The notes under the pieces: model-generated
Told to the model about the DNA's origin: nothing
Database searches by the model: none
The model's input: only the letters and a program-made list of their open reading frames with translations
Assembly: GCF_001757355.1 (NCBI RefSeq)
Contig: NZ_MINO01000005.1
Location: 62,001-126,000, forward strand
Source of the DNA: Sphingobium phenoxybenzoativorans
Lineage (GTDB): Bacteria > Pseudomonadota > Alphaproteobacteria > Sphingomonadales > Sphingomonadaceae
Reading direction: 5' to 3'
Length of the DNA: 64,000 nucleotides
Shown: positions 24,300 through 47,545 of the stretch, piece by piece
Layout of the letters: every line of letters begins with the position of its first letter
How positions within the stretch are numbered: the first letter of the stretch is position 1
Translations under genes and position numbers: made by a program

Positions 24300-24971
24300 A
24301 TGGAATTGCCGAAAGTCGCGGCCCCCGCGATAGCCATAGCCGGGTCGAGCGAGATGTTTCCCGTGCGGCGCATCTTCTGCGTTGGGCGCAACTATGCCGA
24401 GCATGCCCGTGAAATGGGCAGCGATCCGGAGCGGGAGCCTCCCTTCTTCTTCACCAAACCGGGCGACGCCGTGACGCCGGGCGGCCTGCTGCCCTACCCT
24501 TCCATGACAAGGGACCTGCATCATGAGGTCGAGCTGGTCGTGGCGCTGGGCAAAGGCGGCGGCGATATCGACCCTGCCGATGCCAATGCCCTGATATTCG
24601 GTCATGCTGTCGGGATCGACCTCACCCGGCGCGACCTTCAGGCGGAGGCCAAGAAGGGCGGCCGTCCATGGGACATGGCCAAGGGCTTCGACCAGTCTGC
24701 GCCGATGGGTCCGCTCAAAGCCGGCGCGCCACCGGCGGACGCCGCAATCGCCCTTACCATTGATGGCGCGTTGCGGCAGTCGGGGCGTATCGCCGACATG
24801 ATCTGGAGCGTGCCGGAGATTATCGCCATCCTGTCGACCTATGTCAGACTGGCTCCCGGCGACCTGATCTTCACGGGCACGCCGGCCGGCGTTGGACCGA
24901 TCTTGCCGGGCGAAACCGTGATGGGCATGATCGATGGGGTGGAGCCGGTCGAAATCCGGTACGGAGCGTGA
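24300..24971 (+). CDS. Fumarylacetoacetate hydrolase family protein
   Basis: 223 residues. FCVGRNYAEHAREMGSD, FFFTKPGDAV, LHHEVELVVALGKGG (E-x-E metal ligands), GIDLTRRDLQ (Asp ligand), GRPWDMAKGFD and LIFTGTPAGVGPILPGETV define the FAH fold used by acylpyruvases, oxaloacetate decarboxylases and 2-hydroxyhepta-diene-dioate isomerases. The size and KGFD motif are like acylpyruvase/oxaloacetate tautomerase-type members. Exact substrate not decidable. GAGG precedes ATG 24300. Confidence 0.9.
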   Translation: MELPKVAAPAIAIAGSSEMFPVRRIFCVGRNYAEHAREMGSDPEREPPFFFTKPGDAVTPGGLLPYPSMTRDLHHEVELVVALGKGGGDIDPADANALIFGHAVGIDLTRRDLQAEAKKGGRPWDMAKGFDQSAPMGPLKAGAPPADAAIALTIDGALRQSGRIADMIWSVPEIIAILSTYVRLAPGDLIFTGTPAGVGPILPGETVMGMIDGVEPVEIRYGA

Positions 24972-25072
24972 GGCCAAAAACCCCCTGCTGACGGCGCTTT
25001 CGCGGCCCTCGCGCATGATCCGGGGGAGCGAAGTTGCGGAAGTTGCGGGTTGTGCGCGGATTTGGCCGGAAA
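24972..25072. other. Spacer before tandem array
   Basis: Immediately after the FAH-family stop. Contains two GAAGTTGCGG copies (around 25030-25048). No gene seen. Confidence 0.3.
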
Positions 25073-25270
25073 GTCGCATGTAGGTCGCACAAAAGTCGCA
25101 TGTAGGTCTCATGTGCGTCTCACCTGCGTCGCATGTACGTCTCACATGCGTCTCACTTGCGTCGCACGTGCGTCTCACTTGAGTCTCACCCACGTCGCAC
25201 TTGGGTCGCACGTGCGTCTCATCCACGTCGCATGTACGTCTCACTTGCGTCTCATTTACGTCGCAGTCGG
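25073..25270. repeat. 18-copy, 11-bp tandem array (GTCKCA-N5)
   Basis: Eighteen consecutive units of exactly 11 bp with no insertion or deletion. The first six bases GTCGCA or GTCTCA are kept in every unit, and the last five vary (TGTAC, CTTGC, CGTGC, CCCAC and so on). Position 4 follows mostly a T-T-G rhythm, giving a 33-bp higher order. All six frames are open; on the minus strand the array reads an 11-residue repeat of the CDVxETxVRRT type. No ribosome site or natural gene was found across it. Function unknown; not CRISPR (spacers far too short). Confidence 0.9.
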
Positions 25271-25569
25271 GACGCCTCGGAAGCATCGGCGGGATCATCG
25301 CTACGGCGTGATGCGCGGCGGGGGCAGAATGCTGTTCCATGTGCGGAAGTAGAGCATGGACGCCCGGATGTAGGACAGGCATTTGGCGGAATGGCTGCAA
25401 CTCGTCAGGCGGGCTGAATTAAGCAGCCGGTCTGGAAGCGACCACTTCCAGTCGTCCAAACCGGATATTTGCCGACCCAAAAGCCGCCATGCATGCAGCC
25501 TTGTCTAACATCATCTGAATTTAACTAATGTGATCACATGGTGACGCTTCCGCACAATAGAGAGCGTGT
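25271..25569. other. 300-bp gap between array and membrane protein gene
   Basis: GC falls from left to right. No coding frame with a ribosome site. TGATCACATGGTGA (about 25530-25545) is a small palindrome-like sequence in front of the next gene and could be an operator, but nothing stronger can be said. Confidence 0.3.
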
Positions 25570-26073
25570 ATGATACTGAGATATCGCCCCGCCCGCATGG
25601 TTTTGGCTGCGGGAATCACTGCAGCCGCTGCTGTAGCTTGTGGCTGGTTCGGATTGCATGTTCCGGTGCCGCATCACGGGGGACGTTATTCGCTTATATA
25701 TGGTTTGTTGGGCCATAATGGCGTGACGGCTTTTTTCTTAATCGTTACAGCCATTCTTATCTACTTAGCGTTCAAGCTCGTTCTTCCAATTGCTTCGGGC
25801 TATGTGGTTGCCGAGAGCGACGACGTTGGCGTTCGACTGCGCACTGCCGGACATCCCATAGCGCTGAAGTGGAACGAAATTCATTCGATCGAGCGGAAAG
25901 AGATCGGCACAAAGCACAAGGTTCCAATTGTGGTGCTGCACCACGAGCCAAAAAAGGCGGGGATCCTCGGCAGCAGGCGCACTAGCACCCTAGTTCCGGA
26001 ACTTCTGACGGTCGATGAAGACGTTTTTGAGAATTGGCTAGGGCAGGTCCAGGCTCGAATTCGGCAATCGTAG
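25570..26073 (+). CDS. Unknown two-helix inner-membrane protein
   Basis: 167 residues. Helix 1 about 10-32 (MVLAAGITAAAAVACGWFGL), helix 2 about 52-78 (NGVTAFFLIVTAILIYLAFK), then a soluble basic/beta-type C-terminal domain of about 90 residues (VAESDDVGVRLRTAGHPIAL, KWNEIHSIERKEIG) reminiscent of PH-like domains of small membrane proteins. Codon use is noticeably less GC-rich than the neighbours and the gene lies between the tandem array and a palindromic repeat, so recent acquisition is plausible. No family recognised. Confidence 0.65.
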   Translation: MILRYRPARMVLAAGITAAAAVACGWFGLHVPVPHHGGRYSLIYGLLGHNGVTAFFLIVTAILIYLAFKLVLPIASGYVVAESDDVGVRLRTAGHPIALKWNEIHSIERKEIGTKHKVPIVVLHHEPKKAGILGSRRTSTLVPELLTVDEDVFENWLGQVQARIRQS

Positions 26074-26152
26074 CGGAGTGGCAGTTTATCCTATCGAACG
26101 ACCGATTTTCATCGTTCGCAACCAATTGCAGCGGTTCCCCTAACCACCCCTT

Positions 26153-26249
26153 CGTCATCCCGGACTTGATCCGGGATCTATTGGCTCCATGCTGGCGTGA
26201 CGGCACAAGCGCCAGCGCTCATGGATCCCGGATCAAGTCCGGGATGACG
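26153..26249. repeat. Palindromic repeat, family A (CGTCATCCCGG type)
   Basis: Perfect 26-bp inverted arms (26153-26178 and 26224-26249), each itself a small palindrome around GGAnTTGATCCGG, separated by 45 bases. Related copies occur at 46,370 and 60,231 in this window. Dispersed intergenic elements of this kind are common in sphingomonads. Possible bidirectional terminator. Confidence 0.85.
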
Positions 26250-26325
26250 AAATAGGGATATGTCCGCTTCCCGCCCATTCCAGTCGTCGCGGCCCCGTCA
26301 ACAGGGGACAGTGACAGGGACGCCC

Positions 26326-27615
26326 CTATTTCAGACGCAGCGCCACCGATGCGGCATGGGCGGGCAGGCCCTCCGCTTTGGCGAGCGCCACCGCGGCCGG
26401 GCCGATCGCGTCAATCGCACGCTGATCGAGCGCAAGGAAGCTGGTGCGCTTCATGAAGTCCAGCACCGAAAGCCCGGAGGAGAAACGGGCGCGGCGACCG
26501 GTCGGCAGGACATGGTTGGGACCCGCGACATAATCGCCCACCGCTTCCGGGGTCATGCGTCCGAGGAACACCGACCCCGCATGACGGACCAGCGCGAACA
26601 GCGCATCGGGATCGTCCACGGCGAGCTCCAGATGTTCCGGCGCAAGGCGGTCGACAAACGGCATTGCGGAAACCAAATCCTCGACAAGGATGATTGCGCC
26701 ATTGGCGTTCCAGCTCGCCGTCGCCGTTTCCCTCGTCGTAAGCTTAGGAAGCTTCTGCTCGACCGCCGCCGCCACGGCGTCGGCAAAGGCCGCGTCGTCA
26801 GTGAACAGGATCGACTGGCTGGTCGGGTCATGCTCGGACTGGCTGAGCAGGTCGGCGGCGGTCCAGTCGGGATCATTCCTCCCATCCGCCACCACCACGA
26901 TTTCCGAAGGCCCGGCGACCATGTCGATGCCCACCACGCCGTAAAGCTGGCGCTTCGCCTCCGCGACCCAGGCGTTGCCGGGACCCACGATCACATCGAC
27001 GGGACGGATTTTTTCCGTGCCATAGGCCAGAGCCGCCACCGCCTGCGCGCCGCCGACCCGCCATACTTCGCCAATCCCGGCAATCTCCGCCGCCGCCAGG
27101 ACAAGCGGATTCATCTCGCCGCCGGGCGTAGGCGTCACCATCGCGATGCGCTCGACACCCGCGACCTTGGCCGGGATGACGTTCATCAGCAGCGACGAGG
27201 GATAGGCCGCGCGGCCGCCCGGCACATACAGGCCAGCCGCATCCACCGCGCTCCAGCGCGCCCCAAGGCGGACCCCGGCGCTGTCCGTTCCGTCGCTGTC
27301 CTGCGGCCGCTGTTTTTCATGATAGGCGGCGATGCGCGCGGCCGCGAGTTCCAGCGCGTCGCGCAATTCCGTCGAAAGGCCATCGAGCGCGGCGCGGCGC
27401 TCGGCGGCGGTCACGCTCCAGCCGCTCGCTTCCAGATCGTGCCGGTCAAACCGCTGCGTATAGTCCGCCAGCGCCGCGTCGCCCTCGGCGCGAACGCGCT
27501 TCAGGATCGCGGTCACATCCCGCGACACATCCTCGTCCGCCTCACGCCGGGCATCGACCAGCGCGGAGAAGGCGGCGGCGAAACCGGCATCCCGGCTGTC
27601 CAGCCTAAGCGGCAT
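26326..27615 (-). CDS. hisD: Histidinol dehydrogenase HisD
   Basis: 429 residues. Two NAD+-dependent oxidations of histidinol to histidine, the last steps of the pathway. [64 protein letters not shown] and [15 protein letters not shown] (zinc and substrate residues) are all intact, as are APEHLEL and [10 protein letters not shown] near the C-terminus. Overlaps hisG by 11 bp in a hisG-hisD operon. Confidence 0.97.
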
Positions 27616-28267
27616 CCTTGACCCCCACGGCCCGCCGGAACGCCTCGACCAGCGGCGTCAGTTCGCCCGACCGCATCTTGAACGCCGCCCGGTTGACGAT
27701 CAGCCGGGCGGACACGTCCATGATGACGCTGGTCTCGACCAGGCCATTAGCCTTCAGCGTCGCGCCCGACGACACAAGATCGACGATCCGGCGGGACAGG
27801 CCGAGCGAAGGCGCAAGCTCCATCGCGCCGTTCAGCTTCACGCATTCCGCCTGCACGCCCATCGCCTCGAAATGCTTGCGGGTGAGGCCGGGATATTTGG
27901 TGGCGACGCGCACATGGCTCATCGTCGCCTGATCCTCAGCCGCCAGCCCCTCCGGCTCCGCGACCGACAGGCGGCAATGGCCGATGTTCAGGTCAACCGG
28001 CGCATAAAGCTCCGAATAGTCGAACTCATCGACGACATCCGATCCGACAATGCCAAGCTGCGCCGCGCCGTGCGCGACGAAGGTCGCGACGTCGAAGGCG
28101 CGGACGCGGATGATCGAAACATCGGGCTGGTTTGTGGCGAAGCGAAGCGCCCGGCTCTTGCTGTTATGGAAGTCCGCCTCCGGCTCTATGCCGACGCGGG
28201 CGAGCAGGGGCAGCGCTTCCTCCAGGATGCGTCCCTTGGGAATGGCGATGATGAGCGGGCGGGCCAT
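27605..28267 (-). CDS. hisG: ATP phosphoribosyltransferase HisG, short form
   Basis: 220 residues, catalyses the first histidine step. [45 protein letters not shown] and [20 protein letters not shown] (PRPP loop) are typical. At 220 residues it lacks the C-terminal ACT-like regulatory domain of long HisG, so it needs HisZ as regulatory partner; a hisZ gene is present at 57,347-58,483. Confidence 0.96.
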
Positions 28268-28331
28268 AATCCGCGCGCTTTACGCGGGGTAAGGGCAAAG
28301 GGCAATGATTGCTGTCGGGGATGTTTTCCGG

Positions 28332-28745
28332 TCAGCCCGGCCTGCCCGCCTCCGCCGGCCGGTCCTGCATCAGCCATGCCTCCGCGGCATCGGGCATCAG
28401 GAACATTTCGAACTCGGCGCTCTTCACGACCCGGCGCATCTGCATCTTCGCCAGGTTTGAATGCACGACGATCGCTATCCTGTCCCCCTCAGTATAAACC
28501 GCGCCCGCGCGGTCCGCGAGGTGAGACACCAGCTCAGGCGATTGCGCGACCGCGCCGCGCAGATCGACCAGCGCCATGACCCGCGCGCCGGCCGTACGCG
28601 CAGACCGCACGGAATTGCCGAGTTTCTCAAAATGCCGGTCGATGTCCGCCATCGTCCAGAAGCCGTTGCCGGTTACATGGACAATGCCCGTCGCAATGTC
28701 CCTGCGGACCGAAAATGGCCCGGAATCCTGTCCCTCGCCCACCAT
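28332..28745 (-). CDS. Small hypothetical protein with STAS/SpoIIAA-like fold features
   Basis: 137 residues, no signal or membrane segment. Pattern FSVRRDIATGIVHVTGNGFW, VMALVDLRGAVAQSPELVSH and YTEGDRIAIVVHSNLAKMQM then FLMPDAAEAWLMQDRPA resembles the STAS-like domain of the DUF3478/SpoIIAA family. I start at ATG 28745 because GGGAG lies 5 bases upstream; ATGs at 28775 and 28799 lack one. Downstream of hisG is the nearest same-strand gene, 65 bp away, but a joint transcript is uncertain. Confidence 0.6.
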   Translation of the reverse strand: MVGEGQDSGPFSVRRDIATGIVHVTGNGFWTMADIDRHFEKLGNSVRSARTAGARVMALVDLRGAVAQSPELVSHLADRAGAVYTEGDRIAIVVHSNLAKMQMRRVVKSAEFEMFLMPDAAEAWLMQDRPAEAGRPG

Positions 28746-29010
28746 GAAACTCCCGACAATTTCCGCCACGCCCATGGGCTTTCTCGCCCGGCCGCACATC
28801 GCATCCGGAGGTTAATGATCAGTGGAACGGGGCCTTGCTGGAAGCAACCCGATCGACCAAAATATTAATCTGGAGCAAGTTATCCCTCTGTATCGGGATC
28901 ATATTTTCGCCGGATTGCGCGCCGCGCCATGCATCAATCCCGCCCCTTGGTGAAGGCGATGGTTTTCCCTAATGGTGGCACTGGTCCCCCTAAACAGGAA
29001 TGAGCAAAGC

Positions 29011-29610
29011 GTGGCGCGGTTGATCCTGTTTAACAAGCCTTATGGCATGCTCTCACAATTCACCGATCGCGGGACCATGGGTTCGGACCGGCCGACCCTT
29101 TCGAGCGCCATCGACCTGCCCGGCATATATCCGGCCGGGCGGCTCGACATGGACAGCGAGGGCCTGCTGCTGCTGACCGGCGATGGCCGGCTTCAGGCGC
29201 AGATCGCCGATCCGAAATTCAAAATGCCCAAATCCTATCTGGTGCAGGTGGAGGGGGAGATTGGCGAGGACAGCCTGGCCGCTCTGCGCCGCGGCGTGCA
29301 GTTGAAGGATGGCCCGACCCGCCCGGCCGAGGCCGAACGCATCGACGATCCCGCATTATGGCCCCGCGATCCGCCGGTGCGATACCGCAAGAGCGTGCCC
29401 GACTGCTGGATCAGGCTGACGATCCGGGAGGGACGCAACCGGCAGGTGCGCCGCATGACGGCGGCGGTGGGCCATCCGACCTTGCGGCTGGTGCGGTGGA
29501 GCATCGGCGAATGGACGGTCGACGGCTTGCAGCCCGGCGCATGGCGGGAAGCGGCCGCCGGACCAGCCGCCCTCAATCCCCGGTTTCGAAAGCCACGCTA
29601 CCCTGATTGA
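29011..29610 (+). CDS. rluE: Pseudouridine synthase RluE-like (RsuA family)
   Basis: 199 residues. LILFNKPYGMLSQFTD start, catalytic Asp in YPAGRLDMDSEGLLLLTGDG (GRLDxxSEGLLLLT signature), PKSYLVQVEGE and IREGRNRQVRRMTAAVGHPT complete the RsuA/RluE fold. No N-terminal S4 domain, which favours RluE (23S rRNA helix 89 pseudouridine). Start is probably GTG 29011 after AGGA; an ATG at 28972 adds 13 residues without ribosome site. Its 3' end overlaps the convergent roxA gene by 38 bp. Confidence 0.88.
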   Translation: MARLILFNKPYGMLSQFTDRGTMGSDRPTLSSAIDLPGIYPAGRLDMDSEGLLLLTGDGRLQAQIADPKFKMPKSYLVQVEGEIGEDSLAALRRGVQLKDGPTRPAEAERIDDPALWPRDPPVRYRKSVPDCWIRLTIREGRNRQVRRMTAAVGHPTLRLVRWSIGEWTVDGLQPGAWREAAAGPAALNPRFRKPRYPD

Positions 29611-46597: not shown

Positions 46598-47545
46598 ATG
46601 GCCGATCCCTACAGCATATTGGGCGTTGCCCGCGGCGCGAGCGAAGGCGACATCAAAAAGGCGTACCGCACGCTCGCCAAAACGCATCACCCGGACCGGA
46701 ACAAGGACAATCCCAAGGCGGCCGACAAGTTCGCCGAGATTACCCGCGCCTATGACCTTCTGACTGACAAGGACAAGCGCGCACGCTTCGACCGGGGGGA
46801 GATTGACGGCGACGGCAACCCGACCAATCCATTCGGCGGCGGCGGGTTTGGCGGTGGCGGCTTCGGCGGCCGCGGCGGCCAACAAGGCGGCGGCTTCGAA
46901 TTCAACAGCGAGGGCGCGGACTTCGGCGATATCTTTGAGGGGATATTCGGCGGCGGACGGCGCGCGGCCGGTGGCGGCGGCGGATTTGGCGGCTTTGGCC
47001 GGGGCGGACGCGCAGGCCCGCCCCCCAAGGGCGCAAACACCGCCTATCGCCTTGCCGTCAGCTTCGTCGATGCGGCAACGCTGGCGCCGCAGCGCATCAC
47101 CCTGCAGGATGGCAAGACCATCGACCTGAAACTGCCCGCAGGCGCGGAAACCGGCACGCAGATGCGCCTGTCCGGCAAGGGTCAGCCGGGCGCGGGCGGC
47201 GCAGGCGATGCGATCGTCACGATAGAGGTCAAGCCCCACCCCTTCTACACCCGCGACGGCGACAATGTGCGGCTGGACCTGCCCATCACCATCAACGAAG
47301 CCGTGAAGGGCGCGAAGGTCCGCGTCCCGACGGTCGATGGCCCGGTGATGCTGGGCGTTCCCGCCGGGTCGTCATCCGGCAAGACCCTGCGCCTCAAGGG
47401 GCGCGGCTTTACGGGCAAGAACGGCCAGCGCGGCGACCAGCTCGTCACCCTGATCGTCGATGTGCCCGCCGCTGATGATGCCCTGGCGAGTTTCCTGGAG
47501 GGGTGGACGGACACCCGGCCCGTGCGCGGAAATCTGGGCGTCTAG
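46598..47545 (+). CDS. cbpA: CbpA-like J-domain co-chaperone
   Basis: 315 residues. N-terminal J domain (MADPYSILGVARGASEGDIK; THHPDRNKDN with HPD), Gly/Phe-rich linker of about 80 residues with FGGGG repeats, no zinc-finger Cys, then two C-terminal beta-sandwich domains (IDLKLPAGAETGTQMRLSGK, VRVPTVDGPVMLGVPAGSSS). Lack of the zinc domain makes it CbpA rather than DnaJ. Partner Hsp70 is DnaK (not in the window). Confidence 0.92.
   Translation: MADPYSILGVARGASEGDIKKAYRTLAKTHHPDRNKDNPKAADKFAEITRAYDLLTDKDKRARFDRGEIDGDGNPTNPFGGGGFGGGGFGGRGGQQGGGFEFNSEGADFGDIFEGIFGGGRRAAGGGGGFGGFGRGGRAGPPPKGANTAYRLAVSFVDAATLAPQRITLQDGKTIDLKLPAGAETGTQMRLSGKGQPGAGGAGDAIVTIEVKPHPFYTRDGDNVRLDLPITINEAVKGAKVRVPTVDGPVMLGVPAGSSSGKTLRLKGRGFTGKNGQRGDQLVTLIVDVPAADDALASFLEGWTDTRPVRGNLGV

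Follow-up and report, generated by a model that had tools for sequence, protein, structure and literature searches.

A phased 11-bp repeat array within a dispersed intergenic element of Sphingobium: a candidate row of protein sites at gene ends

Introduction

Several described systems share parts of the architecture of the repeat locus reported here. The BOX elements of streptococci (boxA-boxB-boxC) are likewise intergenic and have conserved ends enclosing an inner module of variable copy number, whereas the present unit is 11 bp long and combines a conserved core with a variable spacer, and sequence, taxon and element differ. BIME and REP sequences are similarly dispersed behind genes and partly palindromic; in contrast, the repeats here are direct 11-bp repeats and no intact RAYT was found. 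Plasmid iterons, too, repeat a protein site directly and in phase, but the arrays of this study occupy many loci and had no match in a plasmid collection.

The operators of phage late regulators (Ltr/Alt/RinA/ArpU; phrog_36 and phrog_248) share with this locus the core or its complement, the 11-bp step and the variable spacers, and they lie, like the chromosomal arrays, just after a stop codon. They differ in having about four sites, against 3 to 23 exact cores per array at 16 loci here, and the chromosomal arrays showed no recognised in-register -10-like box and no regulator among the neighbours tested. In PMC13123087, Ltr activators are described as generally binding four imperfect repeats, and Alt of TP901-1 as binding four repeats from -76 to -32, which by our arithmetic come to about 11 bp each; the repeats of phage phi13 are 18 bp there, not 11. 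The matches listed by literature searches included no description of this array and none of the phage core as letters, PMC13123087 being the one relevant source among them.

This study followed up an initial annotation of one such array in a 64,000-nucleotide stretch of Sphingobium phenoxybenzoativorans DNA (hereafter the window). The explanation that fared best, to which a probability of roughly 0.4 is given, is that of a candidate row of protein sites at gene ends, carried inside an interspersed element as a module that can be absent.

Results and Discussion

Unit structure of the array

The window array consists, as initially described, of 18 eleven-mers placed back to back with no indels, all starting GTCGCA or GTCTCA. 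Three units in succession were found at 114 places in the 5.04-Mb genome and at none for the reversed pattern, so the array is far beyond chance expectation. The last five bases of the unit had been called free; over the 229 in-phase units of the 16 arrays in this genome they are instead biased, reading T/C, N, T, G/A, C/G/A, and 92 different pentamers occurred among 281 units counted. Core and spacer positions are unequally conserved: between the first and last core of each array, 208 of the 229 units carry the exact core, while the ninth position is T in 83% and every other spacer position holds any one base in at most 58%, counts that favour the core somewhat because array limits were set by exact cores. 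Of the junctions, 1 of 209 was off phase here and 2 of 64 in G364, the relative.

The T-T-G rhythm reported at position 4 is real (lag-3 association, z 5.8 over 19 arrays) but interrupted, reading GGGTTGTTGTTGGTGTTG. A 33-bp amplification unit had been proposed from it; the Tandem Repeats Finder scores for the window array were highest at period 33 (195, against 126 for period 22 and 123 for period 11). Placement of the constant half on one face of the DNA holds only approximately, since 11 bp on a helix of 10.5 bp per turn drifts by about 17 degrees per unit.

Anatomy and genomic position of the element

The initial observation is incomplete in that the array belongs to a dispersed element with a conserved head and tail (Table 1). 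The element is intergenic and about 350 bp long, with the order head, array, tail, the array forming an inner module. A DNA-level search within this genome located array-bearing copies at 16 places, dispersed over its contigs, plus 11 array-less copies (L048-L058). The head search gave one extra place with three mismatches, and the reversed control gave 2. The tail motif TAGGA[CA]AG lies downstream in 14 of the 15 parsed array copies (all but L045), at L037 not until about 650 bp further on, and 2 of the 11 array-less copies had no tail motif within the stretch searched.

Table 1. Features of the element at the window locus and of its surroundings (window coordinates).
Feature	Position	Strand	Remark
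Upstream gene	24300..24971	+	presumably fumarylacetoacetate-hydrolase-like (sequence read by eye); element begins 58 bp past its stop codon
Head GAAGTTGCGGAAGTTGCGGG	25030..25049	+	22 exact and 5 one-mismatch copies genome-wide
Spacer, head to array	25050..25072	+	other copies with an array have a similar spacer
Array, 18 x 11 bp, core GTC[G/T]CA	25073..25270	+	
Tail: imperfect inverted repeat ATGCTGTTCC..GGAAGTAGAGCAT	25329..25357	+	similar in several copies
Tail end GTAGGACAGG	25370..25379	+	common to array-less copies too
AT-richer orphan ORF	25570..26073	+	codon model start 25723; outside element

The zone around the array had been described as free of genes. The codon model indeed calls no gene from 24971 to 25723; the orphan ORF could begin at 25570. 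Its region is AT-richer (GC 0.52-0.55), as stated initially for a neighbouring low-GC gene. The 167-aa product of this ORF seems, on inspection by eye, to have two membrane stretches, and no Pfam match was obtained.

Gene calls are approximate, since they come from a simple codon model that had seven ORFs of the window as its training set. Position was tested for 26 of the 27 copies (L045 was left out), and the element lies head-first behind a codirectional gene in 20 of the 26 (binomial p 0.005). The codirectional left gene is at most 60 bp away in 15 copies, whereas all 6 divergent ones are at least 86 bp away. To the right, the neighbouring gene runs on the opposite strand at 18 of the 26 copies, and 13 of the 26 lie between convergent genes. 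Nine left-hand genes at other array loci were identified: codirectional ones for prephenate dehydratase, pyruvate kinase, PilZ, a xylose-isomerase-like barrel, AnmK, acylphosphatase and chorismate mutase, and divergent ones for LolA and a beta-helix protein. No shared theme was seen among these nine.

Coding and RNA-level explanations

An 11-residue repeat protein had been suggested for the minus strand, and long open frames do cross the window array on both strands. No frame was open across copies, however: counted from the array end, none is open in more than 6 of 17 arrays, and in 11 of the 17 the stretch from the head to the end of the array has a stop in each plus-strand frame. A repetitive protein-coding gene is contradicted by this failure to keep a frame, and its probability is regarded as negligible.

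A role of the transcribed array as a 3'-UTR element (a Rho loading site, an RNA-protein sponge or a structure protecting the 3' end) is rather unlikely in our estimate, although the gene-end position and fixed orientation would suit it, as would the capacity of the tail and the array-less head to form hairpins and the lack of a long T-run directly after the head hairpin in the array-less copies inspected by eye. Window-array RNA is also more stably folded than its dinucleotide shuffles, whichever strand is taken (z -4.3 sense, -3.4 other strand). Permuted unit orders fold about equally well, with only 5 of 17 arrays on the minus strand and 2 of 17 on the plus strand beating 95% of their own permutations; the folding therefore stems from the near-palindromic make-up of the unit and not from unit order, and a long mirrored RNA hairpin was rejected. 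For Rho loading in particular, a pyrimidine-C pair recurs exactly each 11 nt and the C/G ratio, which spans 0.83-1.90 over 22 arrays (the limits of L043 being misparsed), exceeds 1 in 16 of them, but the excess is small (1.0-1.4 in 15 of the 22) and the folding is unlike an open rut site. A pure rut site was accordingly rejected as too structured (sense z -4.3) and with too small an excess of C; a literature search listed nothing on Rho site spacing. The chromosomal arrays have one orientation relative to the head and are hence uninformative on DNA versus RNA, whereas the viral arrays described below lie either way round to the regulator gene, which fits DNA.

Rfam gave no matches at gathering cut-offs for 16 element-bearing loci and five sub-threshold matches for the window. 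The initial remark that no known family matches is thus borne out for Rfam at these cut-offs, but an operator of such a type exists in phages.

Distribution and relation to G364

The search of sphingomonad genomes that had been proposed for GTCKCANNNNN-type arrays was run and found them to be rare: strict arrays occurred in 1 of 298 family genomes and GTC[GTC]CA arrays in 2 of 94 genus genomes, namely this genome and G364. Contigs of the MAG 'Sphingobium sp. nzgw534' carry the G364 loci in identical form. Four units in succession were present in 1 of 396 order genomes and 2 of 398 phylum genomes, the second of the latter being a repeat of identical units; G364 lay outside the family and order samples. 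Other sphingomonad assemblies yielded ten heads, all array-less; of the 28 stretches found in this search, 7 come from unrelated taxa and are probably chance matches. The element was seen in one bacterial lineage.

Nine of the 11 copies in G364 have an orthologous copy here, so their positions are old, and recent transposition was rejected on this ground. A non-autonomous mobile element of the MITE or REP/RAYT type would account for the 27 head copies with common ends, for the GTAG in the tail and for the left flank, which often reads TCCWAC and is imperfectly complementary to GTAGGA. It is nevertheless judged very unlikely: besides the shared positions, a Y1 transposase (PF01797) was seen at one broken locus only, in two pieces with an internal stop, and mobilisation by an intact RAYT was therefore discarded. 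At the window locus no clean empty site was found in G364, where the counterpart of window gene 28972-29610 comes immediately after the upstream gene and window positions 24972-28971 are absent at that place, which indicates a larger rearrangement.

Orthologous arrays do not align unit by unit, except for L040/L119, whose units pair almost one to one, and part of L041/L110. At the orthologues L036/L127, one species has an array and the other an array-less interior. Array-start signature A is carried by 9 of 15 arrays in this genome and 0 of 8 in G364, and signature B by 2 of 15 and 7 of 8, respectively. Array starts are homogenised within each genome, and interiors have been exchanged or homogenised; we infer gene conversion as the process, which may act through the common head and tail. 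Over 60 scripted unit pairs, differences fell on 21 of 300 core positions, 17 of 60 at position 4 and 86 of 300 spacer positions; the alignments, weak in four of five cases, were scored on spacers and position 4, which lowers the difference counts of these.

These comparisons bear on the possibility that the element is a near-neutral interspersed repeat of BIME or BOX type, grown by 33-bp slippage, spread by gene conversion and tolerated behind genes. The period-33 signal, the genome-specific start signatures, the array and array-less interiors of L036/L127 and the neighbouring genes without a theme are all in keeping with it. Even decay would be expected from such a repeat, yet the exact core is retained in the great majority of units while spacers vary, the phase is maintained, and the core matches a recurring phage site. 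The near-neutral explanation is therefore held to be unlikely.

The same core in viral contigs

IMG/VR was scanned for four units of GTC[GTC]CA at period 11, and 80 of 100 stretches were examined, in which 27 of 49 distinct arrays had variable spacers. Distinct variable-spacer arrays at other periods numbered 12 of 24 at period 10, 2 of 7 at period 13 and 0 of 5 at period 8, a weak control with only two spacer bases left; at period 12 there were at least 8, among 55 from the 80 matches listed. The reversed core at period 11 gave 0 of 14. Open frames of at least 143 aa contain all 8 period-12 arrays of the matches listed and 13 of the 27 period-11 arrays; some of the viral arrays may therefore be coding. 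The viral contigs with the core range in GC from 0.28 to 0.68. Among 50,697 phage records, the element itself had no match.

Two control cores at period 11 gave variable arrays in 4 of 11 cases (GTCACA) and 6 of 25 (TCABGC), so the phage site class is wider than GTC[GTC]CA. Five of the six variable TCABGC arrays read GTCACGC throughout, and TCABGC was discarded as an independent control, having proved not to be independent. The phased GTCACGC arrays with variable spacers (L516, L518, L522, L524 and L526) perhaps represent a sister operator class.

Many other scan matches are repeats of near-identical units from one AT-rich virus group and have no bearing on the argument. Contigs of about 4-18 kb with near-identical units of GTCGCA plus a G-rich pentamer include L198, L202, L205, L206, L220, L221, L224, L225, L227, L232, L234, L238 and others; L198 carries near-identical 11-bp units on both strands, about 100 bp apart. 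Viral locus L211, which has 22 bp in common with the array start, was set aside: the frame around its array is open over a long distance, and none of the neighbours tested gave a match. Integrase arm sites were also rejected, as an integrase motif search near 80 viral arrays found 2.

The nearest ORFs (20 in total) were compared with phage regulators at 19 viral array loci, which were chosen for variable spacers or adjacency and not at random, with L210 and L213 being near relatives. A match to phrog_36 or phrog_248 at E of at most 1e-4 was obtained at 10 loci and a weak one at an 11th, with none at the remaining 8 of the 19. L265 and L270, subjected to the Pfam test alone, showed no such regulator. 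Relatives of the matched ORFs are annotated as RinA transcriptional activator or as RNA polymerase sigma factor.

Past the array, the best -10-like box lies at 21-22 bp in 9 of 15 phage loci and at 32-33 bp in another 3, spacings that would fit the register of the 11-bp step. At L207, L215, L226, L236, L242 and L261 the box begins 21 bp beyond the array, as though the final unit stood in for the -35 element. The box reaches at least 5/6 in 11 of the 15 loci, while only 1 of the 15 beats its own shuffles at 0.05; the set includes L207, L219, L248 and L256, where a regulator match is absent or which are outside the tested set. The viral-array pattern agrees with published late activators that bind four imperfect repeats (PMC13123087), the repeat length of phi13 aside.

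Tests on the chromosomal arrays and candidate function

None of the nine left-hand genes tested at other array loci encodes a regulator of this kind. No specific cognate regulator was found elsewhere in the genome, since phrog_36 had matches in all 9 genomes examined with it and phrog_248 in all 6, whether or not they carry arrays, and a dedicated one was therefore rejected. The genome-wide matches here are generic sigma-region-4 only, the best phrog_248 match being, from its sequence read by eye, presumably an ordinary ECF sigma factor. On the tail side none of the 16 arrays has a -10-like box of at least 5/6 beside it, and on the head side one does (L046), by a consensus that may not be the host's. 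The array thus has the site of a phage late operator and neither its regulator nor its promoter, and it was not filed as one; its length also speaks against such an operator, as the phage arrays searched have about four sites.

Among the interpretations offered initially, cooperative protein binding fares best, since viral contigs repeat the core and the period, often next to activator genes, and show a preference for 10-11 bp; overall, that interpretation is partly supported. That the array is a row of sequence-specific protein sites on DNA is considered fairly probable. The core GTC[GTC]CA would offer one site per 11 bp with loosely constrained spacers, to be read by a putative helix-turn-helix protein that resembles the phage activators and probably binds long site rows behind genes. 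A bound row may block or insulate transcription leaving the gene, often toward a convergent gene, rather than act as an activator site, as no promoter was recognised beside the arrays. Such a roadblock or insulator role is the preferred function, held with low confidence and in itself doubtful.

It is also conceivable, if highly improbable, that about 225 exact sites of the phage-activator type behind genes act as a decoy that soaks up the activator of an infecting phage and stops its late genes. The phage would need about four sites, and arrays behind genes would disturb no promoter; if true, the decoy would be a gene-less antiviral defence. In the order, the other genomes sampled lack any such array that could mark a prophage operator, and the viral scan names no hosts.

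As for the site row itself, the results connect the minisatellite of this chromosome with a defined type of site, GTC[GTC]CA at a phasing of 10-11 bp, that recurs in viral contigs, often next to late-activator genes. If protein-bound, the arrays would provide long natural site rows at gene ends for studies of block, insulation or decoy, and the orthologous pairs with and without an array at one locus are natural experiments.

Two further repeats were observed in the window. An inverted repeat at 26153-26249, CGTCATCCCGGACTTGATCCGGGATC .. GATCCCGGATCAAGTCCGGGATGACG, forms a REP-like palindrome, a similar half of which lies behind L035, and a GC-rich tandem repeat of 15 bp in 3 copies occupies positions 46832-46876.
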